Of a stretch of DNA of 64,000 bases, positions 20,858-40,142 are shown piece after piece. Origin of the DNA: Streptomyces sp. NBC_01314 (GTDB lineage: Bacteria > Actinomycetota > Actinomycetes > Streptomycetales > Streptomycetaceae); NCBI RefSeq assembly GCF_041435215.1, contig NZ_CP108394.1:5518001-5582000 (forward strand). The letters are read 5' to 3'. Both the position numbers and the translations under genes were made by a program. How positions within the stretch are numbered: the first letter of the stretch is position 1; every line of letters starts with the position of its first letter. The notes under the pieces are model-generated. The model worked only from the letters and a program-made list of their open reading frames with translations, did no database searches and was not told the origin of the DNA.

Positions 20858-22867
20858 ATGGGCATTCTCTCTCTCCTGCGGAATGCGTTCAGCCGCTCAC
20901 GCAAGGGGCGCGACACGGTTCCTTCGCAGGAGGCGGAGCGGGTTTCCTCGCCGGAGGCCGCCGACGGCTCCGCGGCGAACACCGAGCCGGCTTCCCCGCG
21001 GGAGGCCGAGCCGAGGGTTCCGGCCCCGGCGACCGAGCCCGAGCCGACGACCACCGCCGCCGCCGCGCCTGCGGCCGCCTCCACGCCGCCCACCTCCGTC
21101 GCCGACGACCTCGTCTCCGCGGCCTTCGACAACGTGACGGTACCGAAGCCGCGGGACGGGGAGCCCGAGGCTTCGGCCGAGACCGGTACACCGGCTGGGG
21201 CTGAGGTTCCGGCTCCGGCTCCGGCTGGGGATGAGCCGGACGTTCCGGCTGAGGCTGCCGTTCCGGCTGAGGCCGAGCCGAAGGCGGAAGTGACCGCAGA
21301 GGCCGAGGTGGCGCCGAAGACGGAGGCCGAGCCCACCGCTGAGACGGACGGGGAGACCAAGGCGGAGACGCCGGTCGTGGAGCCGACCCCGGCTGCCGAG
21401 CCTGAGCCCGCCGTCGAGCCTGAACCCGCGGAGTCGGCTGAGCCTGTGGCGTCGGCCGAGGCCGAGGAGGCTGCGGCGCCGGTCGTCAAGGCCGAGCCCG
21501 CGGCTGCGAAGGACGAAACGGAAGCCGCGACTGAGCCTGTGGCGCCGGTCGCCGACCCGGAGCCGAAGGCGGACGCGGAGACCGTGGTGTCTGCCGCCGA
21601 GCCGGAGCCGGTCGCGGAGGTCGTCGCCGAGGCCGAGCCGCAGCCGGTCGCGGAGGCCGAGCCTGCCGGTGCGGAAACGCCGGAGCCGGTCGCCGTGGCC
21701 GCCGATGAGCCCGCAGCCGAGGCGGAAGCCACCTCCGAGGGCGGCGCCGAGCCCGAGGCCTCACCCGAGCCGGAGGCCGCTGCCGCGCCGGAACCGTCAG
21801 CCGTAGAGGAGCCGGAGACCGCGCCGGAGACCGAAACCGCCTCCGAGGCGGAACCGGAAGCCGCGAACGAGCGCGACGCCACCCCTGAGCCCGACACCTC
21901 TGCCGAGCCCGAGCCCACTCCCGAGCCGGTGGCTGCCACCGAGCCGGAGGCCACCCCGGAACCGGCCACCGCCACCCAGCCGGAAGCCACTCCCGAACCG
22001 GCAGTCGTTCCCGAACCGGCCGCCGTTCCCGAACCGGAAGCCGCCCCCGAACCCGTGGCCGCGGCTCTCGACGCCACGCCCGAACCCGCGGTCGCCGACG
22101 GTGAAGGCGCCCCGCAGGTGGCACCCGCAGCCGACGACGAAAGCCGCACGGGTGGTGCGGGTGGGAAAACGGACCCGGCCGAAGGCGGAGCCGAGGCCGT
22201 CGTGCCAGCCACCGCAGGCGGAGCCGAGGCCGTGCCGGCCGGCCTGCGTACCGCGTACGACGCCGCCAGGGCCGTACTCGGGAAGCGGGACCTCGCCGAC
22301 GCCCGCGCCAAGGTGTACCTCGTCCTCGACAGGTCCGCGTCGATGCGCGGCTACTACAAGGACGGTTCCGCCCAGGCACTCGGTGAGCAGACCCTCGCCC
22401 TCGCCGCCCACCTCGACCCCGAGTCCCCCACCGTCCCCGTCGTCTTCTTCTCCACGGAGCTGGACGGCACCGGCGAGCTCACCCTCGACTCGTACGACAA
22501 CAAGGTCGACGAGCTGCACGGCGGACTCGGCCGCATGGGCCGTACCAGCTACCACGTGGCCGTCGAGGAGGTGCTCGCCCAGCACCAGAAGGCGGCCGAC
22601 ACCGGCGCCCCCGCCCTCGTCGTCTTCCAGACCGACGGCGCCCCGGACACCAAGACCCCCGCGAACCAGGCGCTCGCGGACGCCGCGAAGAACCACCCGG
22701 CCGTCCACTTCGCGTTCGTCGCGTTCGGCGACCCGGAGAACAAGGCCTTCGACTACCTCCGCAAGCTGAAGACGGACAACACGTCCCACTTCCTGGCCGG
22801 AGAGACCCCGCGCGAACTCACGGACGCCGAGGTCTACGAGGGCATCCTGGCCACCTGGCGCCCGTAG
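20858..22867 (+). CDS. VWA-domain (TerF-like) protein with long Ala/Glu/Pro linker
   Basis: 669 residues, ATG 20858. A short basic N-terminus ([17 protein letters not shown]) precedes about 420 residues of degenerate EPE/AEP/PEP repeats. The C-terminal 210 residues form a von Willebrand A domain with the metal site D491-R-S-A-S and later QTDGAPD. The domain resembles TerF-type VWA proteins of the tellurite-resistance group. No signal peptide, so probably cytoplasmic; the linker is likely disordered and highly acidic. Followed by a perfect 17-bp terminator. Role unknown. Confidence 0.82.
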
Positions 22868-22875
22868 TCACCCAC

Positions 22876-22913
22876 GGCGGACGGGCCCCGGCGAAGGCCG
22901 GGGCCCGTCCGCC
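22876..22913 (+). terminator. Intrinsic terminator after the VWA gene
   Basis: Perfect 17-bp stem, 22876-22892 with 22897-22913, four-base loop, nine bases after the stop. Confidence 0.85.
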
Positions 22914-22927
22914 ACCCGAAACGCGTG

Positions 22928-22962
22928 TGAGTCGAGCTTCATGGGGCCAGTAGGATTTCGGC
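22928..22962 (+). promoter_or_regulatory. Probable leaderless promoter of metG
   Basis: TAGGAT at 22951-22956 ends six bases before the metG ATG; TGAGTC at 22928-22933 is a possible -35 with a 17-base spacer. There is no ribosome site, so transcription probably starts at the ATG. Confidence 0.5.
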
Positions 22963-24579
22963 ATGGCGGCCACTGGAACCGAGAAGCAGGGTGGCAAGGC
23001 GTTCTACGTCACCACCCCCATCTATTACGTCAACGACGCTCCTCACCTGGGCCACGCCTATACGACCGTCGCAGGGGACGTGCTCACACGCTGGCACCGT
23101 CAGCGCGGCGAGAAGGTGTGGTACCTCACCGGCACGGACGAGCACGGTCAAAAGATCATGCGTACCGCCGATGCCAACGGAGTGACTCCGCAGGAGTGGT
23201 GCGACAAGCTCGTCGAGGAGGCCTGGAAGCCCCTCTGGGAGCACCTGGAGATCGCGAACGACGACTTCATCCGCACCACGCAGAAGCGGCACACCGACCG
23301 CGTTCAGGAGTTCGCCCAGGACCTGTACGACAAGGGCGAGATCTACAAGGGCGGCTACGAGGGCCCGTACTGCGTCGGCTGCGAGGAGTACAAGCTCCCG
23401 GGCGAACTGCTCGACGGCGAAGGCGACTTCGCGGGTCAGAAGCTCTGCCCGATCCACAAGAAGCCCGTGGAGATCCTCAGCGAGGAGAACTACTTCTTCA
23501 AGCTGAGCGAGTACGGCGAGAAGCTCCTCGCCCACTACGAGGCGAACCCCGGCTTCATCCAGCCCGAGTCCGCGCGCAACGAGGTCGTGAACTTCGTCCG
23601 CCAGGGCCTGCAGGACCTGTCGATCTCCCGCTCGACCTTCGACTGGGGCATCCCGATCCCGTGGGACCAGAAGCACGTGATCTACGTGTGGGTCGACGCG
23701 CTGCTCAACTACGCCACGGCGGTCGGCTACAACGAGAACGAGGAGAAGTTCGGGGCCACGTTCCCGGCCGACGTCCACCTCGTCGGCAAGGACATTCTCC
23801 GCTTCCACGCGGTGATCTGGCCCGCCATGCTGATGGCGCAGGGCCTCCCCCTGCCAGGGAAGATCGCGGCGAACGGCTGGCTGATGGTCGGCGGAGAGAA
23901 GATGTCGAAGTCGAACCTGACCGGCATCAAGCCGCAGGATCTGACCTCGCACTTCGGTGTCGACGCCTATCGCTGGTACTTCCTGCGCGCGATCGCCTTC
24001 GGTCAGGACGGCTCGTTCTCCTGGGAGGACTTCTCCGCCCGCTACACGAGCGAGCTCGCGAACGACTACGGCAACCTCGCCTCCCGTGTCGCGGCCATGG
24101 TCGGCAAGTACTACGCCGGGGCCCTGCCGGAGGCCACGGCCGACAGTGAGGCCGAGAAGGCGCTGCACGACGGCCTGGCCAAGGCGGTCGCCGAGGCCGA
24201 CCGGAAGATCGGCGACGAGCTGGACTTCCAGGGCGGCATCCTGGCCGTGTTCGACTTCGTCAAGCAGGTCAACGGCTACATCACGGAGCAGGAGCCGTGG
24301 AAGGTCGCCAAGGACACGAGTGACGAGGGCAAGGCCCGCCTGGCCACGATCCTCTACACGGCTGCCGAGTCCCTCCGCGCTGTCGCCGTCCTCCTCAACC
24401 CGATCATGCCGGACACTTCCGCGCAGCTCTGGGACTCCCTGGGCGCGGAGGTCACTCTCGGAGCCCTCGCGGACCAGAACGTCCAGGAGGCGGGCGAGTG
24501 GGGCAAACTCCCGGCCGGCTCGACGGTGACCAAGGGCGCGATCCTCTTCCCGCGCCTGGAGGAGAAGCCGAAGGCGTAG
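22963..24579 (+). CDS. metG: Methionyl-tRNA synthetase
   Basis: 538 residues. It charges tRNA-Met with methionine for initiation and elongation. Class I signatures are clear: HLGH (28-31) as the HIGH motif and KMSKS (313-317). The connective peptide keeps a CVGCEEY knuckle and a later LCPIH, which suggest a one-zinc form. The length fits a form without the C-terminal dimerisation domain. ATG 22963 has no ribosome site and a -10 box directly upstream. A strong terminator follows, so it is a single-gene unit. Confidence 0.97.
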   Translation: MAATGTEKQGGKAFYVTTPIYYVNDAPHLGHAYTTVAGDVLTRWHRQRGEKVWYLTGTDEHGQKIMRTADANGVTPQEWCDKLVEEAWKPLWEHLEIANDDFIRTTQKRHTDRVQEFAQDLYDKGEIYKGGYEGPYCVGCEEYKLPGELLDGEGDFAGQKLCPIHKKPVEILSEENYFFKLSEYGEKLLAHYEANPGFIQPESARNEVVNFVRQGLQDLSISRSTFDWGIPIPWDQKHVIYVWVDALLNYATAVGYNENEEKFGATFPADVHLVGKDILRFHAVIWPAMLMAQGLPLPGKIAANGWLMVGGEKMSKSNLTGIKPQDLTSHFGVDAYRWYFLRAIAFGQDGSFSWEDFSARYTSELANDYGNLASRVAAMVGKYYAGALPEATADSEAEKALHDGLAKAVAEADRKIGDELDFQGGILAVFDFVKQVNGYITEQEPWKVAKDTSDEGKARLATILYTAAESLRAVAVLLNPIMPDTSAQLWDSLGAEVTLGALADQNVQEAGEWGKLPAGSTVTKGAILFPRLEEKPKA

Positions 24580-24598
24580 CCACGCACTGCGACTACGC

Positions 24599-24644
24599 AG
24601 CGGGAGCCCAGGAAGGACTGACCTTCCTGGGCTCCCGCTCTTTC
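24599..24644 (+). terminator. Intrinsic terminator after metG
   Basis: Perfect 18-bp stem, 24599-24616 with 24622-24639, five-base loop, then CTTTC. Confidence 0.88.
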
Positions 24645-24704
24645 GCTGCCACTTGAGCCATAGGGCCGGCAACCTTGTACGCCCGGGTGCGCGTCTCCCG
24701 ATAC

Positions 24705-25070
24705 ATGGCACTGTTCGGAAACGCGCACACCGTCAATCCCGGCAAGGCCCAGCAGGACTACGGACGTTTGCTGGGTCACGGGGAGCAGGTCCACGCCGCG
24801 TTCCTGCTGATCCGCGACACCATCCTGTTCACCGACCGCCGTCTCATCCTGATCGACAAACAGGGGATCACCGGCAAGAAGGTGGAGTACCACTCCGTCC
24901 CCTACCGCAGCATCACGCACTTCGCGGTCGAGACGGCCGGCCACTTCGACCTCGACGCCGAGCTGAAGATCTGGCTGTCCGGCACCCATGAACCGATCGA
25001 GAAGACGTTCACCAAGGGTGTGGACATCTACGAGGTGCAGGCGATCCTCACGCAATTCGTGGCCCGGTAG
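24705..25070 (+). CDS. Bacterial PH-domain protein
   Basis: 121 residues from ATG 24705; no clear ribosome site. The sequence fits the bacterial pleckstrin-homology family: strands AAFLLIRDTILFTDRRLILID, seen as landmarks TILFTDRRLILID and GKKVEYHSVPYRSITHFAVE, and a C-terminal helix DIYEVQAILTQFVAR. It covers the full domain with no extra region, so it is soluble and cytoplasmic. Function unknown; in other bacteria such domains assemble into oligomeric rings. Confidence 0.85.
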   Translation: MALFGNAHTVNPGKAQQDYGRLLGHGEQVHAAFLLIRDTILFTDRRLILIDKQGITGKKVEYHSVPYRSITHFAVETAGHFDLDAELKIWLSGTHEPIEKTFTKGVDIYEVQAILTQFVAR

Positions 25071-25138
25071 CGACCGTCGGCCGCACCGCACACCGGGACC
25101 TGGGAAGCCGCACGCCCCAAGGCCCTCCGCATGTTCTC

Positions 25139-30310: not shown

Positions 30311-30408
30311 CCGACAGCCCGGACAGCAGTGGACAAGCTCCGGACAGTCACCGTACGCACCGGCGTCGTCACTGTTCACGGTAAGCACGCACGGCCACTC
30401 TCAGTGAG
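30311..30408. promoter_or_regulatory. Divergent promoter with three GGACA direct repeats
   Basis: GGACA occurs at 30321-30325, 30331-30335 and 30342-30346, 10-11 bases apart, all on one face of the helix. The whole region 30311-30430 is repeated at 34077-34196, where the three copies are kept. This conservation points to a regulatory site, plausibly for the Xre protein. Confidence 0.55.
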
Positions 30409-30852
30409 GTGAACAAGGAAAAGTCCACCCAACTCGACACCCCCACCCGCCGCTTCAGCATCCTGCTGTCCCCCACACCGCGCGGCGCCCGCCTCGCCCG
30501 GCTCCTCGCCACGGAATGGCTGCGCACCTGGGACCCGCCGTACGGCGTCCTCGACACCGCCGAACACCTCGTCGCCGAACTCGCCGCGAACGCCGCCACC
30601 CACGGCCGGCTCCCCGGCCGGGACTTCCGCCTCGTCCTCCACACCCGGGACAACACACTCCGCATCGAGGTGACGGACACACGCGGCGACGCCCTCCCGC
30701 GCCACCGCCACCCGTCCCCCGACGCCGAATCCGGACGCGGCCTGCTCCTCGTCGAGGCACTCGCCAATCGCTGGGGCACCGAACTCGGCCTCGTCCCCCG
30801 CAAGACCGTATGGGCCGAACTCGATCTCAACACCGTTGCGTTCGAGTCTTGA
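30409..30852 (+). CDS. RsbW-like ATP-binding protein
   Basis: 147 residues from GTG 30409. HATPase_c_2 signatures: AEHLVAELAANAATHG (N box), VTDTRGD (G1-like) and DAESGRGLLLVEALANRWG (G2-like). Such proteins are small anti-sigma-factor-type kinases or ATP-binding partners that accompany Xre-DUF397 pairs in Streptomyces. Two broken relatives lie at 33324 and 34174. Confidence 0.9.
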   Translation: MNKEKSTQLDTPTRRFSILLSPTPRGARLARLLATEWLRTWDPPYGVLDTAEHLVAELAANAATHGRLPGRDFRLVLHTRDNTLRIEVTDTRGDALPRHRHPSPDAESGRGLLLVEALANRWGTELGLVPRKTVWAELDLNTVAFES

Positions 30853-31129
30853 GCCGCAGGCCGGCCCTGGTGAATGACGCCACGGGACGTCCTGACAGAT
30901 CAGCTCAAGCCCTCGTCACGCGTGTGGCCGAGGCGGCGGCCGGAACGTGACGCGCTCGGCCGCTTGCGCGCGTTGCATCGGATCGTTCGAGCCGGACTCC
31001 CGCTGCCGGGTCTGCGCCTAACTCAATGGCCGACTGTCAGTCCCCCGCGCTTCGATCGGGTTGATCGGCGTGAACACGCCAAGAAATGGGCGGGTTTGCG
31101 CTGCTCTGACCATCCACAGGGGGTACGAC

Positions 31130-32644
31130 TTGAGACCGAGAATCATGCTGGCCGTGGGGGCTGCCTCGCTGGCGCTGTTGGGCAGCAATCTGACCGTGGC
31201 GCAGGCGGCGGACGATCCCGCAGCCGTACCGGAAAGCTCGCTGAGCACGAGTGCGGACCTCGCCGACCCGGCAGATGAGGAACTGCCGTTGGCTGAGGAA
31301 GACACTGAGGGTGACCCGGAGTCGGAGCCGTCGGAAGAGGACATAGCGCTGGGCATCGAAGGCACGGCCGATGAGCCGGCGGCGGCGCCGGATACCGCCG
31401 AGGACGGACAGCCCGTCACGATGGAGACCGGCACGCAGACGGCGTGCGGCGAGCAGGCGGAGTCGGGCGCCGACGAGGCGCCCGACGGGCAGTACGTGGC
31501 CTGCGTATCGCCTCCGACGCCGGCGGACGAGCTGACTGCCGAGGAACAGGCCGCACTGTCGCGCAGTGATGCCACCGCCAACCCGTCCGCAGGTGAGGCG
31601 GCTGCCCTGGCTGTCGCAGCGGCCCGCGAAAGCGTCGACCAGGAAGCCTTGCTGCAGGACACGACGGATGACGCGGCCTCGGAGACCGAACCCGTCGAAA
31701 GCCCGGACGCTCTCACCGCCGCGGCCAAGCGCTCGCCGTGGAAGGAACCCAAGTGGTGCATCGACGAGGGTGTGGACTCGACCTGGTACATGCAGCGGAT
31801 GCGAAGCTGCGGTGTGTGGCGCGGCAAGGTCTACGCCAAGGATGTGCGCACGGGCCGCGTGGTCGGCAACATCAAGTTTCTCTTCATCGGATACTCCTTC
31901 ACGGCCCGCGACTCCAAGACGTGGGCGGCTCAGGTCAAGTTCGTGGAGGTGTCCCGGTCAGGGAAGGCGGTGAGCGGCACGAAGGCGTACGGCAGTGCTT
32001 CCTGCGTGGGCAAGTGCAAGGTGACGGACAAGGACTTCCCGGCGCAGACGATCAGTTCGAGAGCCGAGCCCTTCGGTCAGTTCTTCATGAAGTCCACCAT
32101 CGACACCAAGGCATCCAAGCAGCGGGGTACCGGGCGGAGCATCGCCACTATGCGGTTCCGTAACTCTGAGTGGCTTGCGCCGTCGGAGCCCCTGAAGCTG
32201 TCCACCCTGGAAGTTCGGTGCGACAACGCCCTGCCCGGTGCGCCGAAGCAGGTCGGCTGTGTGAATCTCCGTGCTGTGCCAGTGATCAGTTACAGCCTGA
32301 CGGGGCCGTGGCCTCAGATAGCCAAGCACATCAAGGACGCCCAGGCCGACGGAAAACCCGGCAAGTACGGTACGACCGACTACCTCACGCGGCTCACGAA
32401 CAAGACGAAGATCGACAAGAACCGTGGCAAGGCGTGTCCGTCGAGCCTGGAGCGCCCACCGGGCAAGTCCTGCGACGAGTACCCCTTCGCCAGCACATGG
32501 CAGGGTGCCAAATACAGCGGCGGTCCGTTCAGCCGACGCATGGTCAACGACAAACAGAACAAGGGTGCCGGTCGCGCGCTGAAAGGTTTCTACGCCTACA
32601 GCCGCGTCCTCGAAGGGGACCGGTACCTGGTATGGATCAGGTAG
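31130..32644 (+). CDS. Secreted NucA/NucB-type DNase
   Basis: 504 residues from TTG 31130, supported by AGGGGGTACGAC; ATG 31145 is the alternative. Residues 1-27 are a Sec signal peptide ending AQA. An acidic, Ser/Glu/Asp-rich region covers about 28-195. A middle domain (about 203-385) has several Cys and repeated strands. The C-terminal part carries the NucA/NucB signature GKSCDEYPFAST (446-456) with the catalytic Asp-Glu pair, preceded by ACPSS and RPPG. B. subtilis NucA cuts DNA during uptake and NucB is an extracellular DNase. The next gene, 11 bases on, looks like its inhibitor. The 277 bases upstream hold no other gene. Confidence 0.82.
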   Translation: MRPRIMLAVGAASLALLGSNLTVAQAADDPAAVPESSLSTSADLADPADEELPLAEEDTEGDPESEPSEEDIALGIEGTADEPAAAPDTAEDGQPVTMETGTQTACGEQAESGADEAPDGQYVACVSPPTPADELTAEEQAALSRSDATANPSAGEAAALAVAAARESVDQEALLQDTTDDAASETEPVESPDALTAAAKRSPWKEPKWCIDEGVDSTWYMQRMRSCGVWRGKVYAKDVRTGRVVGNIKFLFIGYSFTARDSKTWAAQVKFVEVSRSGKAVSGTKAYGSASCVGKCKVTDKDFPAQTISSRAEPFGQFFMKSTIDTKASKQRGTGRSIATMRFRNSEWLAPSEPLKLSTLEVRCDNALPGAPKQVGCVNLRAVPVISYSLTGPWPQIAKHIKDAQADGKPGKYGTTDYLTRLTNKTKIDKNRGKACPSSLERPPGKSCDEYPFASTWQGAKYSGGPFSRRMVNDKQNKGAGRALKGFYAYSRVLEGDRYLVWIR

Positions 32645-32655
32645 CCCCCTGACGG

Positions 32656-33279
32656 ATGAGACCGGAAGACAACACCGTGAATGAGTCAGTCCACACCCGA
32701 ACCGCTCTGGTGCACGCCGAGTATCACCTCTTCCAGATCTCGGATCCGGAGGGGCCCGTGGCCGGTGACCTCGACGCGTCTCACAACGGGCTCGTGTCGG
32801 CCATCGACGGAGCCATCGAGGTGTCGACCGGGATCCACACCGGCAACGTCCAGGTGACCGTCGAACTTCATACGGTGAAGCCCGAGCCCGCTGCGGACTG
32901 GGAAGAGATCGCCGAGATCTCATGGCAATCCCCGTCCGGGGAAGCGCTCGTGGCTCCACTCATGGACGACCCCGTAGACCTGCCCTCGCTGGCCTCGCGA
33001 GGACCGGGCCACTACCGGTTGCGGGTCCATGCCCGGGGCAGGGACACGGCTGTCGACCAGACAGTGGTGGATGATGTCGTGGAGTCCTATCTGCTCCAGA
33101 GCTGGCCCGCGGCACACCAGGAAGCTCTTCTGGTGAGGGCGACCGACGCCTACGGGGCCCACCTCCGGGCCCAGGAGGCCGACGACACCATCGTCATCGA
33201 CCACGAGGACTCTCTCGACACCCAGACCGGCCGGGAACGCGACATCCTGCGCCGGGCCGAACGCGGCCATCAGCCCTGA
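32656..33279 (+). CDS. Nin/ComJ-like nuclease inhibitor (putative immunity protein)
   Basis: 207 residues from ATG 32656; GTG 32677 after GGAAGAC is possible. No signal peptide. The first 140 residues show a beta-rich pattern that I can align by eye with B. subtilis Nin (ComJ), the inhibitor of NucA: YHLFQISDP, GLVSAIDGAIEVSTGIHTGN and GHYRLRVHARG correspond to YHQFTVFQK, KGYAAADGAISFEAQRNTK and GDYQLTCWTVP. The last 60 residues are a helical, acidic extension. Position directly behind a NucA/NucB DNase gene supports an immunity role. The assignment is an inference from remote similarity plus context. Confidence 0.6.
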   Translation: MRPEDNTVNESVHTRTALVHAEYHLFQISDPEGPVAGDLDASHNGLVSAIDGAIEVSTGIHTGNVQVTVELHTVKPEPAADWEEIAEISWQSPSGEALVAPLMDDPVDLPSLASRGPGHYRLRVHARGRDTAVDQTVVDDVVESYLLQSWPAAHQEALLVRATDAYGAHLRAQEADDTIVIDHEDSLDTQTGRERDILRRAERGHQP

Positions 33280-33300
33280 CCAACAGCCCGCGTCCTCGGT

Positions 33301-33330
33301 TGGGGCAGCTTCAGCACACGGGCTGCCCCA
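33301..33330 (+). terminator. Hairpin after the nuclease-inhibitor pair
   Basis: Perfect 9-bp stem TGGGGCAGC (33301-33309) with GCTGCCCCA (33322-33330), 22 bases after the stop. Confidence 0.6.
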
Positions 33331-33449
33331 TCCCCGACGCCGAGTCCGGACGCGGCCTCCTCGTCGAGGCCCTCGCGGACCGCTGGGGCGTCGAACTCGG
33401 CCCCGTACGCCGAAAAACCGTATGGGCCGAACTCGACCTCGGCTCTTGA
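33324..33449 (+). pseudogene. C-terminal remnant of an RsbW-like ATPase
   Basis: 41 codons reading PDAESGRGLLVEALADRWG and ending KTVWAELDLGS. This is closely related to the end of the intact ATPase at 30409 but lacks the N-terminal two thirds and has lost one Leu codon in the GRGLLL motif. No start codon or ribosome site. A decayed paralogue, perhaps once joined to the 5' piece at 34174. Confidence 0.8.
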
Positions 33450-33827: not shown

Positions 33828-34076
33828 ACAAGCTCCTGACGAGCCTGGGCCCCTGCTCGGATGCCCGTCCGATGCGGGGGCCCTCCTTGAGTCCCAGTAC
33901 AGCACACCGGGTGCCGGTGCGGCATCACCAAGTGACGACCACCCAGTTGGGCCCTCGCACGACCGACGGTTCCCACCTCGCCCTGGCCGGAACCCAGCGG
34001 TCTGCGCTCCGGCGCCACAGGCGTTCTCGGTGACCTTCATCACCCAGACCGTTTGGCGATTCCTGCAAAGCCATTC
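33828..34076. other. Intergenic region without recognised features
   Basis: 249 bases (346 to the next start). I see no convincing ORF or known motif. It continues into the duplicated promoter region. Confidence 0.35.
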
Positions 34077-34196
34077 CGACAGCCCGGACAACAGCGGACA
34101 AGCTCCGGACAGTCACCCTACGCATCGGCGTTGTCACTGTTTGCGGTGAGCGCGCTCCGCCACGCTCAGTGACGTGAACCACAAAAGCTCTACCCA
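34077..34196 (+). repeat. Second copy of the 30311-30430 promoter region
   Basis: Aligns base for base with 30311-30430, including GGACA at 34086, 34096 and 34107 and the shared CTCCGGACAGTCACC. It leads into the broken ATPase gene at 34174, just as the first copy leads into the intact one. This is a segmental duplication. Confidence 0.8.
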
Positions 34197-34421
34197 ACTT
34201 CCCACCCTCACACGTCACTTCAGCGTGGTCCGGCCCTCCACACCATATGGAGCCCACCTCGCCCTCCTGCTCACCACCGAGCGGCCACCCACCCGGGACC
34301 TGCCCGCGGCGTCATCGACGCTGCCGAACACGTCGTCACCGACCCGGAAACCCGGATGGCCGGCACTTCCCCCATGACAGCAGTCCGGACCCGGTGGGAC
34401 CGCGCGACGGAAAGTACCTGA
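34174..34421 (+). pseudogene. Frameshifted RsbW-like ATPase 5' part
   Basis: From GTG 34174 the frame reads MNHKSSTQLPTLTRHFSVV, parallel to the intact paralogue at 30409. Near 34306 the homology moves to another frame (GVIDAAEHVVTD, the N-box region) and continues to a TGA at 34419-34421. ATP-binding G boxes are missing. One frameshift plus truncation; not functional. Confidence 0.8.
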
Positions 34422-34671
34422 TGCCTGCTCTCTCGCTCACCAAGGCCCACGGGTCCCGCAACGACATCTTCGTCGTCGACGGCGCGCCCCTCGATCACTT
34501 CGCCACGGCGGACGAGCTCACCCGTGCCGTCAGCCTGCTGTGCGACCGCAGGCGCTGCTGCTGGGCGAGTCCGCCGTACTGCGCCGCCACCGCCGGGCCC
34601 TCGCATCGGCCGGCGAGGCCACGGCCGTGGCAGCCCGAAAAGCCGGCCTCCACCGAACCGCAGAAAACTGA
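34421..34671 (+). pseudogene. Fragment of a diaminopimelate-epimerase-like gene fused to another remnant
   Basis: ATG 34421 overlaps the previous TGA. About 43 residues read MPALSLTKAHGSRNDIFVVD and then LTRAVSLLCDR, which match the N-terminus of DapF-type epimerases (TKxHGxxND, LCDR). The match then ends abruptly; a different frame from 34552 reads ALLLGESAVLRRHRRALASA to a TGA at 34671, from a source I do not recognise. The catalytic Cys residues of DapF are absent. A degraded junction of two genes. Confidence 0.6.
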
Positions 34672-34758
34672 GCTCCGGTGCCTCAGGCGCTCTTCCCAAA
34701 GAACCACGAGAGAGAAAGAAACCCCACCAAGCCCCACCCCTCCCGCCCACAGCGTCCG

Positions 34759-34907
34759 CTCACTCGGTCGAGTGAACAACACCAACTCGGCTGGCTTCCG
34801 GACAGGTTGGCTGCTCTACGCTCAGCGCGGCACCACACAACCGCAGCAGCCACACAACCGCAGACATGCGACGGCCCCCGCCGGGACTGCAATCCCATGC
34901 GAGGGCC
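34759..34907 (+). promoter_or_regulatory. Leader region of the HTH gene with hairpins
   Basis: CACTCGGTCGAGTG (34759-34772) is a palindrome; CACACAACCGCAG is repeated twice at about 34831 and 34850. A nested hairpin, GGCCC 34873-34877 with GGGCC 34903-34907 and inner GGGA/TCCC (34883-34886, 34893-34896), lies just before the start of the 34936 gene. This leader type recurs in Streptomyces upstream of similar genes, from memory. Confidence 0.4.
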
Positions 34908-34935
34908 TGACCACAGAGGAAGCAGAACCTTCCCA

Positions 34936-35856
34936 ATGGATACGCAGAACCCTAGCGTGCACCCGCACGCCCAGACCCGAACCACGGGCAAAAACCACCC
35001 CCGCCGGAGCACCCACGCGGGCGGGGTGATCCACGACAACTCCCGTCACACCACCCGCTTCACGGTGGTCGGCAACCACCTCGCCCAGCACGCCGAGCTG
35101 TCCGCGCTGGCCATCGGACTCGCCGTCCACGTCCAGTCGCTCCCCACCGGCGCCCGCGCCGACATCAAGACCCTCGCCGACCGTTTCCCGGAGAGCCCGG
35201 CTCGTATCGCCGCCGCCCTGCGCGAACTGGAGACCCACGGTTACCTGCGCCGCACCCGCGAACGCACCGACAGCGGCCGGATCGTCACCCGCACCGTCTC
35301 CTGCAACCAGCCGGGCCGGCACGGGGACGCACCCGACGACGCACCCAAACCCTCTGCCGGGCCCCCGGCCCGGCGGGCGGCCGAACAACGCAAGAACCCC
35401 CCACGCCGCGCCCTCCCCGCCGTACCCCAGCCCGGGTACACCTCCCCCGCCCTCCTCCAGACAGCGACCGACGTCCTCGCCGGCCTCCGCCGCGAGGACC
35501 CCCGCCTGCTCCTCTCCGCCACCGACGCCGAACACCTCGCCCCCGGCGTCGCCGCCTGGCTGGAGCGCGACCTCACCCCCACCGCGGTACGCCACGCGCT
35601 GACCAGCGACCTGCCCGCCGAGCCCCTGTACCGCCCGGCCGCCCTCCTGGCCCACCGCCTCACGGACCGGCTCCCGCCCCTGCCACCGTGGCGCGCCCCT
35701 GCCGAGCCCGCACCCGTCCAGTACCGGGTCCGGAACTGCGACGGCTGTGACCGCGGCTTCCATTCGCCCGGCCCCGGCGCACGGTGCCGCGACTGCCGGG
35801 AGCGCCCCGCCGGGGATTCCGGCCCGGTACGCGGAAGCCTGGAGGTGGAGCGGTGA
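34936..35856 (+). CDS. Winged-helix DNA-binding protein with C-terminal zinc-ribbon-like motif
   Basis: 306 residues, ATG 34936. Residues about 40-115 form a GntR/MarR-like winged helix (LSALAIGLAVHVQSLPTGA, TLADRFPESPARIAAALREL, GYLRRTRERTDSGRI). A Pro-rich linker follows, then a helical domain. The end has CDGCDRGFHSPGPGARCRDC, a C4 motif able to bind zinc. Families of this shape are common in Streptomyces accessory regions, sometimes as replication or mobile-element regulators. Function unknown. Confidence 0.78.
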   Translation: MDTQNPSVHPHAQTRTTGKNHPRRSTHAGGVIHDNSRHTTRFTVVGNHLAQHAELSALAIGLAVHVQSLPTGARADIKTLADRFPESPARIAAALRELETHGYLRRTRERTDSGRIVTRTVSCNQPGRHGDAPDDAPKPSAGPPARRAAEQRKNPPRRALPAVPQPGYTSPALLQTATDVLAGLRREDPRLLLSATDAEHLAPGVAAWLERDLTPTAVRHALTSDLPAEPLYRPAALLAHRLTDRLPPLPPWRAPAEPAPVQYRVRNCDGCDRGFHSPGPGARCRDCRERPAGDSGPVRGSLEVER

Positions 35857-36002
35857 GCGGCGAGAGCCTGCGGGAGCACAGGCACGAGCTCCTGAGGGGT
35901 GACCCGGGAGGCGCCCGTGAGCCGGGCACCGCTGCGCTCGCCGCCCGGCTCCGCCGTGCCCCTGGCCGGATACCCTGGCCGGGGCACCCTCTGGAGGACA
36001 CC

Positions 36003-36350
36003 ATGAGCACCCAGGCCGATCACGGACATGAGCTGATCCCCCGTCCCGAGCAGACCCCTGATGCCCTGCGCGCCGCCCTCGCCGTCGTCGCCCCGGGCCG
36101 TCTGGAAGAGATACAGAGGACGAAGGACGAGACCTTCGCCAAGGCCGTCGAGTGGCAGTCCCTGAGTCCGGTACAGAGCTGGGTCCTCGCCTGGGCCAGG
36201 GACATCGAGATCGGCCGCCGTCCCGAGCTGTCCGCCCGCCATGCTCACGCGAAGAGCAACCTGGAGCACGAGGATGCCGTCGTCGCGCAGGAAGCCCTAC
36301 GAGAGCTGAGCGCAGTACTGGACGAGGCCATGAAGGCAGTGCGCGAGTGA
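36003..36350 (+). CDS. DUF6247-family protein
   Basis: 115 residues; ATG 36003 follows TGGAGGACACC. A GTG at 35853, overlapping the stop of the upstream gene and also behind a good ribosome site (GGAGG), would add 50 residues. The region PDALRAALAVVAPGRLEEI and the helical C-terminal half with HAHAKSNLEHEDA fit DUF6247 as I remember it. These small helical proteins are often next to toxin-like genes and may act as antitoxins; here a 38-codon ORF overlaps its stop. Confidence 0.7.
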   Translation: MSTQADHGHELIPRPEQTPDALRAALAVVAPGRLEEIQRTKDETFAKAVEWQSLSPVQSWVLAWARDIEIGRRPELSARHAHAKSNLEHEDAVVAQEALRELSAVLDEAMKAVRE

Positions 36351-36463
36351 GCTGGAAGTGGGAGTACGCCTTCGGCGCGGAGGAAGCCGCCCGCACTGCG
36401 TACCAGGTCGTTGTACGCAGCGAGCGGGTCTACGTCGTCCAGATCACCTATCTCGGCTTCTGA
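36347..36463 (+). CDS. 38-residue ORF overlapping DUF6247
   Basis: GTG 36347 overlaps the DUF6247 stop by four bases (GTGA), a classic coupling arrangement. The peptide begins MSWKWEYAFGAEEAARTAYQ and ends VYVVQITYLGF; it has one helix and one strand. It may be a truncated toxin or a small partner of DUF6247. No family recognised. Confidence 0.5.
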   Translation: MSWKWEYAFGAEEAARTAYQVVVRSERVYVVQITYLGF

Positions 36464-36704: not shown

Positions 36705-38057
36705 TCAGGAGAGGGTGCCCGCGCCCGTCGTGCCGGTCAGGTCGGTCAGGAGGTTGGTGACCTTGGTCTGGAGGCCGGCGGTGAGGGCCGGGGTCCAGTT
36801 GACGGTCGTCTTCAGCTTCTTCGAGTTCGCGGCGTTGTACGCGGCGACGAGGTTGGTGGCCTTGCCGTTGACGATGTTGCCGGTGCCGGCGATCGAGCCG
36901 GTGCCGTCGCCGCTCAGCAGCTTGGCGATCTTCGCGTCGGCGGGGATCTTCCAGACGTTGCGCTCGGCGACGACCTGGGCCTTGGCGCGGGAGTCGATGC
37001 TGTACTTGGGGGCGTAGCCGTTGACCGTGGTGGTGTCGTAGACGTTGTTGTAGATGTGGATCTGGCCGATGCGGGCCAGGGGCGCCCGCTGCACGATCCC
37101 CTTCCACAGGTTGTGGTGGATGGTCACGCGCAGCTTGCCGGTGCTGTCGGTGTCGCTGCTGCCGATCAGCATGGTCTTGTCGTGGTTGAGGAACCGGTTG
37201 CGCTCGACGGTCACCAGGTCGGAGCCGTTGGTGATGTCGAGGGCTCCGTCGTGGACCTGGTACTTGCGGCCGAAGTGCGTCGCCTCGGTCTTGTCGAAGG
37301 TCGGCGCGTCGGTGAACGTGTTGTGGTCCGCCCAGACGTTGGTCGCGCCGCGCAGCGTGACCGAGTCGTAGTTGGAGTTCCACTCGCCGGACGAGCCGTC
37401 GGTCGGGTCCCACTGCGGGAAGCAGTCTTTGGTGTCCGCGAAGGTCAGGTTGCGCACGATGACGTTCTTGACGTTCTGGACCAGGACGCTGCCGCCGAGG
37501 ATGCCTGCCTTGGTGCCGGGGACGCCCACGATGGTGGTGTTGGACGGCACCCTGAAGAGGATGTTCTTCTTCTGCTTGTTGGCGGCGTCCGCGCGGGCGG
37601 TCTCCTGGGTGCCCTTCGGCGCCTTCTTGCCGTACGTCGACGGGTCGAACGCCTTGAGGTAGGCGGAGAGCGAGTAGCCGGTGCCGGAGGCGTAGTCCGC
37701 GCAGGTCAGCTTCTTGCCGGAGTCGTTCGTGTTGGCGTCGATCGTGCCCTTGATCTTGATGATGCGGGGCGTGGTGTCGGTGGCGGAGCCGAGCGCCTTC
37801 ACGAGCTGCGCCCGGGTCGACACCGTGAAGGTGTGCGCCGCGTCGGCCTTCGCACCACCGGTCGTACCGGAACCGGACGCCGCCCAGCCGTCCTTCGCGG
37901 GCAGCACCTGGTGGTACAGGTCCGCGGGGCTGGCGCTGGCGTTCATCACGAGGACGCCGGCGCCGACAGCGGCGGCCACTGCGGCGGCGGAGACCGCGAG
38001 GGTCCGGCGCGTGCGGAGGGACCGGCGGTGGGACGGGCGCGGAGAGGCAGAGGCCAC
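36705..38057 (-). CDS. Secreted pectate lyase, PL1 family
   Basis: 450 residues from GTG 38057, after AAGGACTCATCC. A basic N-region (RRSLRTRRTL) and a hydrophobic stretch to about residue 43 form the signal peptide. The right-handed beta-helix (about 75-370) has the PL1 landmarks: YDSVTLRG with calcium-site D231, HDGALDITNGSD, NHDKTMLIGSSD and the catalytic RAPLAR (R324, R329). It cleaves polygalacturonate by beta-elimination. Polar Lys/Thr-rich C-terminal tail. Single-gene unit with its own terminator. Confidence 0.93.
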   Translation of the reverse strand: MASASPRPSHRRSLRTRRTLAVSAAAVAAAVGAGVLVMNASASPADLYHQVLPAKDGWAASGSGTTGGAKADAAHTFTVSTRAQLVKALGSATDTTPRIIKIKGTIDANTNDSGKKLTCADYASGTGYSLSAYLKAFDPSTYGKKAPKGTQETARADAANKQKKNILFRVPSNTTIVGVPGTKAGILGGSVLVQNVKNVIVRNLTFADTKDCFPQWDPTDGSSGEWNSNYDSVTLRGATNVWADHNTFTDAPTFDKTEATHFGRKYQVHDGALDITNGSDLVTVERNRFLNHDKTMLIGSSDTDSTGKLRVTIHHNLWKGIVQRAPLARIGQIHIYNNVYDTTTVNGYAPKYSIDSRAKAQVVAERNVWKIPADAKIAKLLSGDGTGSIAGTGNIVNGKATNLVAAYNAANSKKLKTTVNWTPALTAGLQTKVTNLLTDLTGTTGAGTLS

Positions 38058-38196
38058 GGATGAGTCCTTACGTAACGTACGTGATTCGGGGGAACACGTG
38101 GTTCGTGTGGAGCCCCCGTGAAGGGAGTTCCGACTCATGTGTGGTCGCCGGTCCGGGATAGGTTGCCGCCGGCTGAACTTTTTCGGTTGTGAGTTG

Positions 38197-38238
38197 ATGG
38201 CTGTCACTTCATGGCTGTCACTTCATGGCTGTCACTTG
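38197..38238. repeat. Three tandem copies of a 14-bp unit across a stop codon
   Basis: ATGGCTGTCACTTC at 38197-38210 and 38211-38224, then ATGGCTGTCACTTG at 38225-38238. The third copy contains the stop (TCA at 38232-38234) and last codons of the minus-strand cupin gene. Confidence 0.9.
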
Positions 38239-38585
38239 ATGTGGTCCAGCACCTCCTGGAACTCCTTCGTCGGGGAGAACTCCACGAGTTCGACGTCCTC
38301 CAGGGCCTCCGGTGAGTGACCGGGGCCCCAGTAGTAGGCCTGTCCCGCCTCGTAGAAGTCCTCGCCCTCCTTGGTGCGCATCCGCAGCCGGCCGCTGACG
38401 ACGAGGCCCCAGTGGGGGCACTGGCACAGGTCGTCGGGGAGTCCTTTGAGCGCCGGGGCCATGTCGATGCCCTTGGGGAGCTTGAGGAAGGCGACGCTCA
38501 TGCCGCCGCCCATCTCCTGGATGCGCACTTCCAGGCCGTCGCCCTCGATCTCGACGGGGGCTTCCGTCCGCGTGACTGCCGTCAT
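38232..38585 (-). CDS. Cupin-fold protein
   Basis: 117 residues. A single small beta-barrel is suggested by GGMSVAFLKLPKGIDM, HWGLVVSGRLRMRTKEGEDF and AGQAYYWGPGHSPEA. The usual metal-binding His motifs are reduced to one His near CPHWG and one in PGHSP, so metal binding is uncertain. No signal peptide. Members of this group are small cytoplasmic proteins of unknown role. It ends in a tandem 14-bp repeat. Confidence 0.75.
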   Translation of the reverse strand: MTAVTRTEAPVEIEGDGLEVRIQEMGGGMSVAFLKLPKGIDMAPALKGLPDDLCQCPHWGLVVSGRLRMRTKEGEDFYEAGQAYYWGPGHSPEALEDVELVEFSPTKEFQEVLDHIK

Positions 38586-39108
38586 GATTCCTCCACGAGC
38601 GATCCGTCGCGGGGCCTCGGGAATCTACCTGCCGGGGTCCGCTCTCTCGGGGACCCTGCACTTTCCAGTCTGCGCCTGCCTTTCACACACCTCGAATCGG
38701 CGTGACTTGCGTCACGACCGAAATGCGCCCGATGGAATTGATCGACCCGCTTTCCCCGAGCGACAAATCGCTTCTTTCACATCCCAATAGGGGTGCTTGC
38801 CGCCACGGGTGGCAAATTCGACTGATCATCCGGATCGGCGATGCCTTGCCTGCCGTCCCGGCGGATCGGCCTTCTGCCTGGTCCCGGGGTCGCACGGGGG
38901 GTCTGAGCAGGTACGTCGACGGCTGGGTTCGTACGTCCTGCCGCCCCCGCGAAACGCCATCGGCACCGCCCTGACAGTCGCACGGGCGTTCGTTGCCCGG
39001 TGCGCTCGGCGGTCCCCATAATGACCGGGCTCGCCAGGGCCGTGGCCAACCAGGAGGTCATACAGGGCCGAAGTCGAACCGAAGCCGGACCACTCAGTGA
39101 GGCCACGT
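38586..39108. other. 523-base divergent intergenic region
   Basis: Between the cupin and CAP genes. An 8-bp hairpin TTGCCGCC/GGTGGCAA lies at 38797-38815. I looked for a c-di-AMP riboswitch, which often precedes secreted wall genes in actinobacteria, and did not find its conserved 3' signature. No ORF is supported. Confidence 0.4.
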
Positions 39109-39975
39109 ATGTCGCGCATGAACAGTCATCGCCGGAAGACGAAACGTTCCGAGACCAACCGCTCGGAGCCGGGGCGTCCGAGAACGAAACGCCGGAAGCC
39201 AGCCGTCGCCGTCGCCGTCGTGATGACCGTGGGCGCCGTCGGCATCCCCACGGCCGCGTGGGCCGGCGGCATCGGGCTGGGAAGCTGGAGCAGTGTGGCG
39301 TCCTCCTGGTGGGGAGGGCAGGAGTCGGATGCGGCTCCGCCGACGCCGTCGCGCACACCTTCCGCGTCCGCGACAGACCCCTCCGCGAGCGCCTCCCCCA
39401 CCCCGGCCCGCAAGAAGCGTCCCGCCCGCTCCGCGAGCCCGAGCGCGTCTCCCTCGAAGTCCGGCAGCCCGACCGCCAAGCCCACCCCCGACTCCGCCGA
39501 CGCCCCCGACAGGACCACTCCGCCTCCGAGCGCCCAGAAGGCCACGAAGGCCACGAGTGCCGACAGCACGCCCCGCGCCTCCGACGACAGCGCGGACTCC
39601 GGCCCCACGGATCGCGTACTGACCCTGGTCAACGCCGAACGCTCGAAGGCGGGTTGCTCCCCGGTGACCGTGGACGCCAAGCTCACCAAGGCCGCGCAGG
39701 ACCACAGCCAGGACATGGCCGATCACACGAACATGTCCCACACCGGTTCCGACGGCTCGTCCATGAGCGACCGGCTCGCCCGTGTCGGGTACAGGTTCAG
39801 TACGGCGGGCGAGAACGTCGCCGCCGGGTACGGCACCCCTGAGAGCGTCATGGACGGCTGGATGAACAGCCCCGGCCACAAGGCCAACATCCTCAACTGC
39901 GCCTTCAAGGAGATCGGCATCGGCCTGGCCGGGCCGGGCAACTACTGGACGCAGGACTTCGGCTCACAGGCATAG
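39109..39975 (+). CDS. Secreted CAP-domain protein
   Basis: 288 residues; ATG 39109 follows GAGGCCACGT. A basic N-terminus and a hydrophobic segment (VAVAVVMTVGAVGIPTAAWA) form a signal or anchor. A Ser/Pro/Ala/Thr-rich spacer covers about 65-165. The last 125 residues are a CAP/SCP domain with LTLVNAERSKAGCSP, HTNMSHTG, GENVAAGY and GHKANIL. Bacterial CAP proteins act outside the cell, often near the wall. Its 3' end overlaps the convergent DUF397 gene by 34 bases. Confidence 0.88.
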   Translation: MSRMNSHRRKTKRSETNRSEPGRPRTKRRKPAVAVAVVMTVGAVGIPTAAWAGGIGLGSWSSVASSWWGGQESDAAPPTPSRTPSASATDPSASASPTPARKKRPARSASPSASPSKSGSPTAKPTPDSADAPDRTTPPPSAQKATKATSADSTPRASDDSADSGPTDRVLTLVNAERSKAGCSPVTVDAKLTKAAQDHSQDMADHTNMSHTGSDGSSMSDRLARVGYRFSTAGENVAAGYGTPESVMDGWMNSPGHKANILNCAFKEIGIGLAGPGNYWTQDFGSQA

Positions 39976-40142
39976 CCACCGAGGTGCCGTATGAGGGCGG
40001 CGGCGCCGTGGCGGGTGACGGGGAGTATTCGGGCGGGGTCGTCGCTCTCGCGGAGGAGTATGCGGGAAGGGGACAGGGCGAGTTCGACGCAGTTCGTGCC
40101 GTCGGATCCGCTGGAGAAGCTGGACTTCTGCCACTGGGTCAC
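39942..40142 (-). CDS. DUF397 protein
   Basis: 66 residues; core WQKSSFSSGSDGTNCVELA and ILLRESDDP. Starts three bases after the stop of the Xre gene at 40146. Second member of this family in the window; same gene order as 29173. Confidence 0.9.
   Translation of the reverse strand: MTQWQKSSFSSGSDGTNCVELALSPSRILLRESDDPARILPVTRHGAAALIRHLGGYACEPKSCVQ

Follow-up and report, generated by a model that had tools for sequence, protein, structure and literature searches.

Why would a streptomycete encode a nuclease with a signal peptide directly upstream of a protein that lacks one? The question is posed by two adjacent genes in Streptomyces sp. NBC_01314, located in a 64,000-nucleotide stretch of contig NZ_CP108394.1 (positions 5,518,001 to 5,582,000, forward strand), henceforth termed the window, whose numbering is used below. 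The first gene encodes a NucA/NucB-type nuclease and the second a partner with the fold of ComJ (Nin), whose gene adjoins that of the nuclease NucA (ComI) in Bacillus subtilis. The original prediction, made from the sequence, read the pair as a secreted DNase with cytoplasmic immunity, and our analysis supports this reading. Both open reading frames are present and intact in the window, and we consider it likely that their products form a toxin-immunity pair for contests between bacteria. The family, fold and active-site residues of the nuclease, the ComJ fold of the partner, and the linkage, parallel divergence and joint transfer of the two genes are established here.

The most probable start of the nuclease gene is TTG 31130, with the sequence AGGGGG six bases upstream (Table 1), and its stop codon is TAG 32642-32644; the recurrence of this start arrangement in relatives is supportive, not independent, since the search pattern covers that same stretch. 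The predicted NucA/NucB catalytic signature was borne out by a PF14040 profile match and by the motif SCDEYPF. In alignments (A3 with 61 rows and A4 with 28 rows, selected from 76 and 31 candidate loci, respectively, with the window added), the four catalytic residues are the equivalents of H53, D93, E94 and N117 of Bacillus licheniformis NucB; the roles of these residues and the position of the catalytic Asp-Glu within SCDEYPF follow PMC5758888, as far as its text was available to us. The catalytic domain superposes on NucB (PDB 5omt) over all 109 residues at 28% identity, but NucB is a stand-alone 110-residue enzyme (PMC5758888), whereas in the window the domain makes up the final quarter of a longer protein. 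Asp and Glu are retained in all 36 full nuclease-partner pairs, a set that excludes loci without full domains, and 28 of the 36 keep the complete set of four catalytic residues. The enzyme is probably a metal-dependent, non-specific DNase.

The remainder of the nuclease sets it apart from B. subtilis NucA, to which it adds an acidic linker and a beta-sandwich domain. Its N-terminus is hydrophobic and signal-like (best 15-residue Kyte-Doolittle mean 2.04). The acidic N-terminal region noted in the original prediction is indeed present (residues 28-195), and outside the genome itself it gave just two weak matches in 150 genomes; this search, like those for the partner, PF14040 and the middle domain, sampled its genomes out of a larger set, with no more than about 20 candidates scored in each. 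The middle domain, rightly described as Cys-bearing (ten Cys map to positions 106, 125, 210, 227, 292, 296, 364, 377, 436 and 448 of the protein), belongs to no family in a Pfam scan, and in searches for other toxin tips every occurrence accompanied the nuclease, apart from a single broken fragment. Two Cys of the catalytic domain are invariant in the 28-row alignment. The PF14040 match reaches residue 524 of 527 in the longer nuclease reading frame, such that the toxin domain is C-terminal and is followed by the partner gene. The Pfam scan found only the nuclease domain in this protein, and no RHS, HINT or other delivery domain.

The partner begins at ATG 32656, 11 bases past the nuclease stop and without a signal-like start, as predicted; an alternative start at GTG 32677, exactly where homology to S. 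scabiei begins, would widen the gap to 32 bases. It contains no Cys, and 37 D/E against 15 K/R. The proposed likeness to Nin/ComJ holds at the level of structure, for the partner superposes on ComJ (PDB 4mqd) with 13% identity over the aligned fold, but not at the level of sequence: the PF11033 ComJ profile matched neither the window partner nor any of 26 family members at E 1. No family was assigned by sequence in Pfam, NCBIfam, PADLOC or the PDB. In a search for which B. subtilis served as positive control, PF11033 matched 0 of 150 genomes from the strain's taxonomic family, presumably Streptomycetaceae; of 396 phylum genomes, a single one scored above cut-off, that one with an internal stop. 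Compared with the 132 residues of B. subtilis ComJ, the partner is about 75 residues longer overall (207); residues 10-152 are ComJ-like and ca. 55 of the others are C-terminal, slightly fewer than the 60-residue extension first proposed. The same fold also occurs in CgnJ (PDB 6i86), titled a biosynthetic gene product of the crocagin cluster, so the ComJ fold has other uses. We know of no nuclease neighbour of CgnJ, though no search was made.

This wider use of the fold raises the possibility that the two genes are chance neighbours, the partner having a ComJ fold for reasons unrelated to the nuclease, and the partner branches without NucA described below would fit such an explanation. We regard it as very improbable in view of the linkage, orientation and parallel divergence of the genes. 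Two independent whole-genome searches, taken to cover the same 150 family genomes, yielded 65 places for the partner and 60 for PF14040, of which 16 and 15, respectively, have a place of the other kind no more than 1 kb away; by a rough estimate, about 0.01 neighbours would be expected by chance. Among these adjacent pairs, the nuclease is upstream and co-directional in 11, five are convergent and none is divergent. These are the unbiased linkage counts, as those from iterated hidden Markov model (HMM) searches (36 of 79 partners, 35 of 62 nucleases) lean towards linkage, the HMM having seen only stretches around earlier matches. The co-occurrence that the original prediction had proposed to survey also emerged from a scan of GTDB species. 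Of 80 named loci (the best of 143, with one peptide pattern as a requirement), 48 encode a nuclease domain no more than 700 bp from the partner; where the partner is at least 70% identical, a nuclease is present in 11 of 13 loci. Nuclease and partner distances over the 36 full pairs correlate strongly (Mantel r 0.887, reached in 0 of 5000 permutations, the best of which gave 0.354). The correlation derives in part from shared host ancestry and therefore shows co-transmission, not contact. In short, the two genes form a module. In Streptomyces cupreus (L141, 2465-7581), two distinct nuclease-partner modules lie adjacent, one co-directional and one convergent.

Phylogeny separates linked from unlinked copies. 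In the nuclease tree, which leaves out 2 of 62 rows shorter than 70 residues, they occupy different branches (8 changes versus 19.9 in shuffles, 0 of 500). The partner tree, without 5 of 79 rows shorter than 110 residues, is less clean (15 changes versus 24.4, 0 of 500) and contains two branches, comprising 19 and 8 of the 74 rows, that have no nuclease in the stretches examined. In the larger branch, members are extended at the C-terminus by a long stretch with many charged residues.

Table 1. Features of the nuclease-partner locus (window coordinates) and members of the two partner branches without NucA.
Feature	Position or members	Strand	Remarks
Secreted NucA/NucB-type nuclease gene	31130..32644	+	504 residues, TTG start; PF14040 E 2.3e-11, 44.5 bits (cut-off 23.8)
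Ribosome-binding site AGGGGG	31118..31123	+	Precedes TTG start; AGGGG and TTG equally placed in 7 of 11 relatives tried
Putative signal peptide, residues 1-27	31130..31210	+	Cleavage near AQA-A by eye; close relatives have a similar hydrophobic stretch
Acidic low-complexity linker, residues 28-195	31211..31714	+	46 D/E and 2 K/R in 168 residues
Cys-bearing beta-sandwich middle domain	31715..32314	+	AlphaFold2 model, confidence score (pLDDT) 92.6; conserved in 28-row alignment
NucA/NucB catalytic domain	32267..32641	+	
Catalytic residues	32327..32560	+	His 32327-32329, Asp 32474-32476, Glu 32477-32479, Asn 32558-32560; by alignment
ComJ-fold immunity/inhibitor protein (putative function)	32656..33279	+	207 residues from ATG; no signal peptide
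Partner C-terminal extension past ComJ fold	33112..33276	+	Partly helical; end nearly unchanged in closest relatives
Cassette common to relatives with non-matching flanks	31028..33333	+	blastn block limits in L134, L135, L139, L141, L158
3' fragment of second HATPase gene	33332..33446	+	Abuts right edge of cassette; flank, outside the system
Larger NucA-free partner branch, 19 rows	L013, L016, L019, L021, L023, L024, L029-L031, L063, L065, L067, L068, L071, L073-L076, L080		
Smaller NucA-free partner branch, 8 rows	L011, L012, L017, L018, L020, L026-L028		

The module is also mobile. In five relatives (L134, L135, L139, L141 and L158), the blastn block shared with the window runs from about 31030 to 33310-33333 while the flanks otherwise lack a match; the block is limited to these two genes, and nuclease and partner therefore travel together. 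Several Streptomyces carry plasmid copies of the cassette, some of them near conflict genes (RHS, zeta toxin, lactococcin 972, Imm7, Imm51), and in strain NBC_00015 an IS5-family element lies between nuclease and partner. This distribution bears on two further explanations. The pair might serve DNA uptake as in B. subtilis, the nuclease cutting incoming DNA and the partner tuning it, and the two folds are the same as those of NucB/NucA and ComJ; yet the cassette is patchy and also plasmid-borne, unlike a conserved locus, orphan partners exist, and none of 10 neighbouring proteins scanned matched a competence family. To our knowledge, natural competence of Streptomyces is not established, and we give this explanation very little credence. 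Alternatively, the nuclease could act in programmed lysis of the organism's own mycelium, restrained by its partner. DNA is known to be degraded in the mycelium during Streptomyces development, but an exported, Cys-bearing enzyme would work outside, and PF14040, found in only 46 of the 150 family genomes, is too patchy for a developmental function, which makes such a role highly doubtful.

A more serious alternative is that the secreted DNase serves nutrition or acts on biofilm or extracellular DNA, and that the cytoplasmic inhibitor protects the producer alone before export, in the way barstar protects the producer of barnase. The signal peptide and the finding of a nuclease domain without RHS or other delivery domains agree with this, as does the description of NucB itself as an extracellular, biofilm-degrading DNase (in the available parts of PMC5758888). 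We nevertheless judge it rather unlikely, as self-protection would be useless to partners without a nuclease, and linked and unlinked nucleases sit in different branches. By HMM, 32 of the 80 named loci have no nuclease within up to 4 kb on each side; tblastn detected nuclease traces in two of these, leaving 30 of the 80 without any trace. Moreover, Streptomyces scabiei 87.22 and Streptomyces sp. MNU76 have the partner alone at the window's own locus, with 91% DNA identity. In both, it directly follows a gene equivalent to window 24669-25075, and the blocks matching the window around it are 24655-25066, 34643-35871, 35958-36463 and 36729-38473 in S. scabiei and 22730-24641, 24669-25075 and 38234-39984 in MNU76. 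The ratio of non-synonymous to synonymous substitution rates (dN/dS) of the partner is 0.36-0.43 among S. scabiei, MNU76 and the window, and 0.13-0.18 among L134, L135, L141 and L123. The nearest nuclease frame is shorter than 165 codons in 13 of the 48 nuclease-bearing loci, where frameshifts in draft assemblies are possible. Orphan immunity genes and short toxin fragments are thus both present, as in polymorphic toxin systems, and the persistence of partners on their own suits an immunity role. Near the right end of its chromosome, NBC_01314 has another partner-family member, which is 53% identical and lacks a nuclease (L061; C1:11119577-11119999, minus strand); its frame stops ahead of a WPxP stretch and may be truncated. 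A pectate lyase gene (PF00544) at window 36705-38207 (minus strand) also occurs in S. scabiei, where it lies downstream of the lone partner gene.

How the proposed toxin-immunity pair might work can be outlined from these data. The nuclease would be exported via its signal peptide, fold outside the cell with disulfides and cut the DNA of competing cells, while the partner would remain cytoplasmic and bind and block the nuclease domain, like B. subtilis ComJ/Nin with NucA, thereby protecting the producer together with its kin; where the nuclease was lost or had never been present, cells would retain the partner as a defence. Export, disulfides, binding, inhibition and entry into rivals are the steps that we infer. 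The signal and the Cys residues, among them the two invariant ones of the catalytic domain, suggest that the nuclease matures outside the cell, and a cytoplasmic inhibitor would therefore be most sensible against enzyme coming in from kin or rivals. Across the 36 pairs, the partner domain is acidic in all (mean charge -14.4) and the nuclease domain basic in 27 (mean +5.4), which fits a blocker of the DNA-binding face. Inhibition by Nin is reported for NucA as well as for NucB (PMC5758888).

A toxin-immunity function also has a precedent. In the parts available to us, Zhang et al. (2012, PMC3482391) propose Tox-ComI and Imm-ComJ as toxin-immunity pairs and suggest that the Bacillus competence pair derives from one; their table lists Tox-ComI for Actinobacteria but Imm-ComJ for proteobacteria, bacteroidetes, cyanobacteria, firmicutes and viridiplantae, not Actinobacteria. 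The window shares with these systems a ComI-type nuclease followed by a ComJ-type immunity gene, and differs in that its nuclease has a signal peptide and no RHS or HINT match and its partner falls outside PF11033. With the B. subtilis pair it shares gene adjacency, the NucB-like fold and catalytic residues of the nuclease, and the ComJ fold of the partner, but the cassette is mobile and patchy and occurs on plasmids too. We read the pair in the window as an actinobacterial branch of Tox-ComI/Imm-ComJ that is new and divergent in sequence. Three points are new: a family of actinobacterial partners that sequence searches fail to detect, a nuclease that combines a signal peptide with a middle domain of its own, and branches of the partner family without NucA. 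Among the open-access PMC matches listed, with subscription journals outside the scope of the search, none reported any of these or described a partner of ComJ type for NucA/NucB proteins in Streptomyces. More speculatively, actinomycete ComJ-fold proteins might constitute a large, fast-diverging superfamily invisible to sequence libraries, in which one part would confer immunity to exported toxins of the NucA/NucB type and the NucA-free branches would protect from other enzymes or have taken new jobs like CgnJ; on that view, the NucA-ComJ pair of B. subtilis would be a domesticated toxin-immunity system. Genes annotated as "hypothetical protein" across Streptomyces and other actinomycetes thereby gain a testable function, and ComJ-type inhibitors are extended to a phylum in which Pfam finds almost none. 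The divergent pairs could also be used to solve how Nin blocks NucA, a question named as open by the NucB authors in the available part of PMC5758888.

Other arrangements of the nuclease domain were encountered in other genomes. A 2141-codon RHS/FG-GAP protein (L213, 888-7310, minus strand) carries a NucA/NucB domain near its C-terminus, with no partner-family gene in the flank examined. ComI-type nuclease domains on Rahnella and Mesorhizobium plasmids (L129, 2521-3939, and L131, 2503-3849) are followed by SMI1/KNR4 (SUKH) genes, an order that Zhang et al. list for Tox-ComI (PMC3482391, available part). In the window itself, the cassette lies amid duplicated HTH/HATPase regulator pieces, namely an intact HATPase gene on the left (30311-30852), the 3' fragment at 33332-33446 and a 5' piece at 34076-34342; the 3' fragment forms direct repeats of 84 nt with 30745-30828 (86%) and of 35 nt with 30717-30751 (91%).
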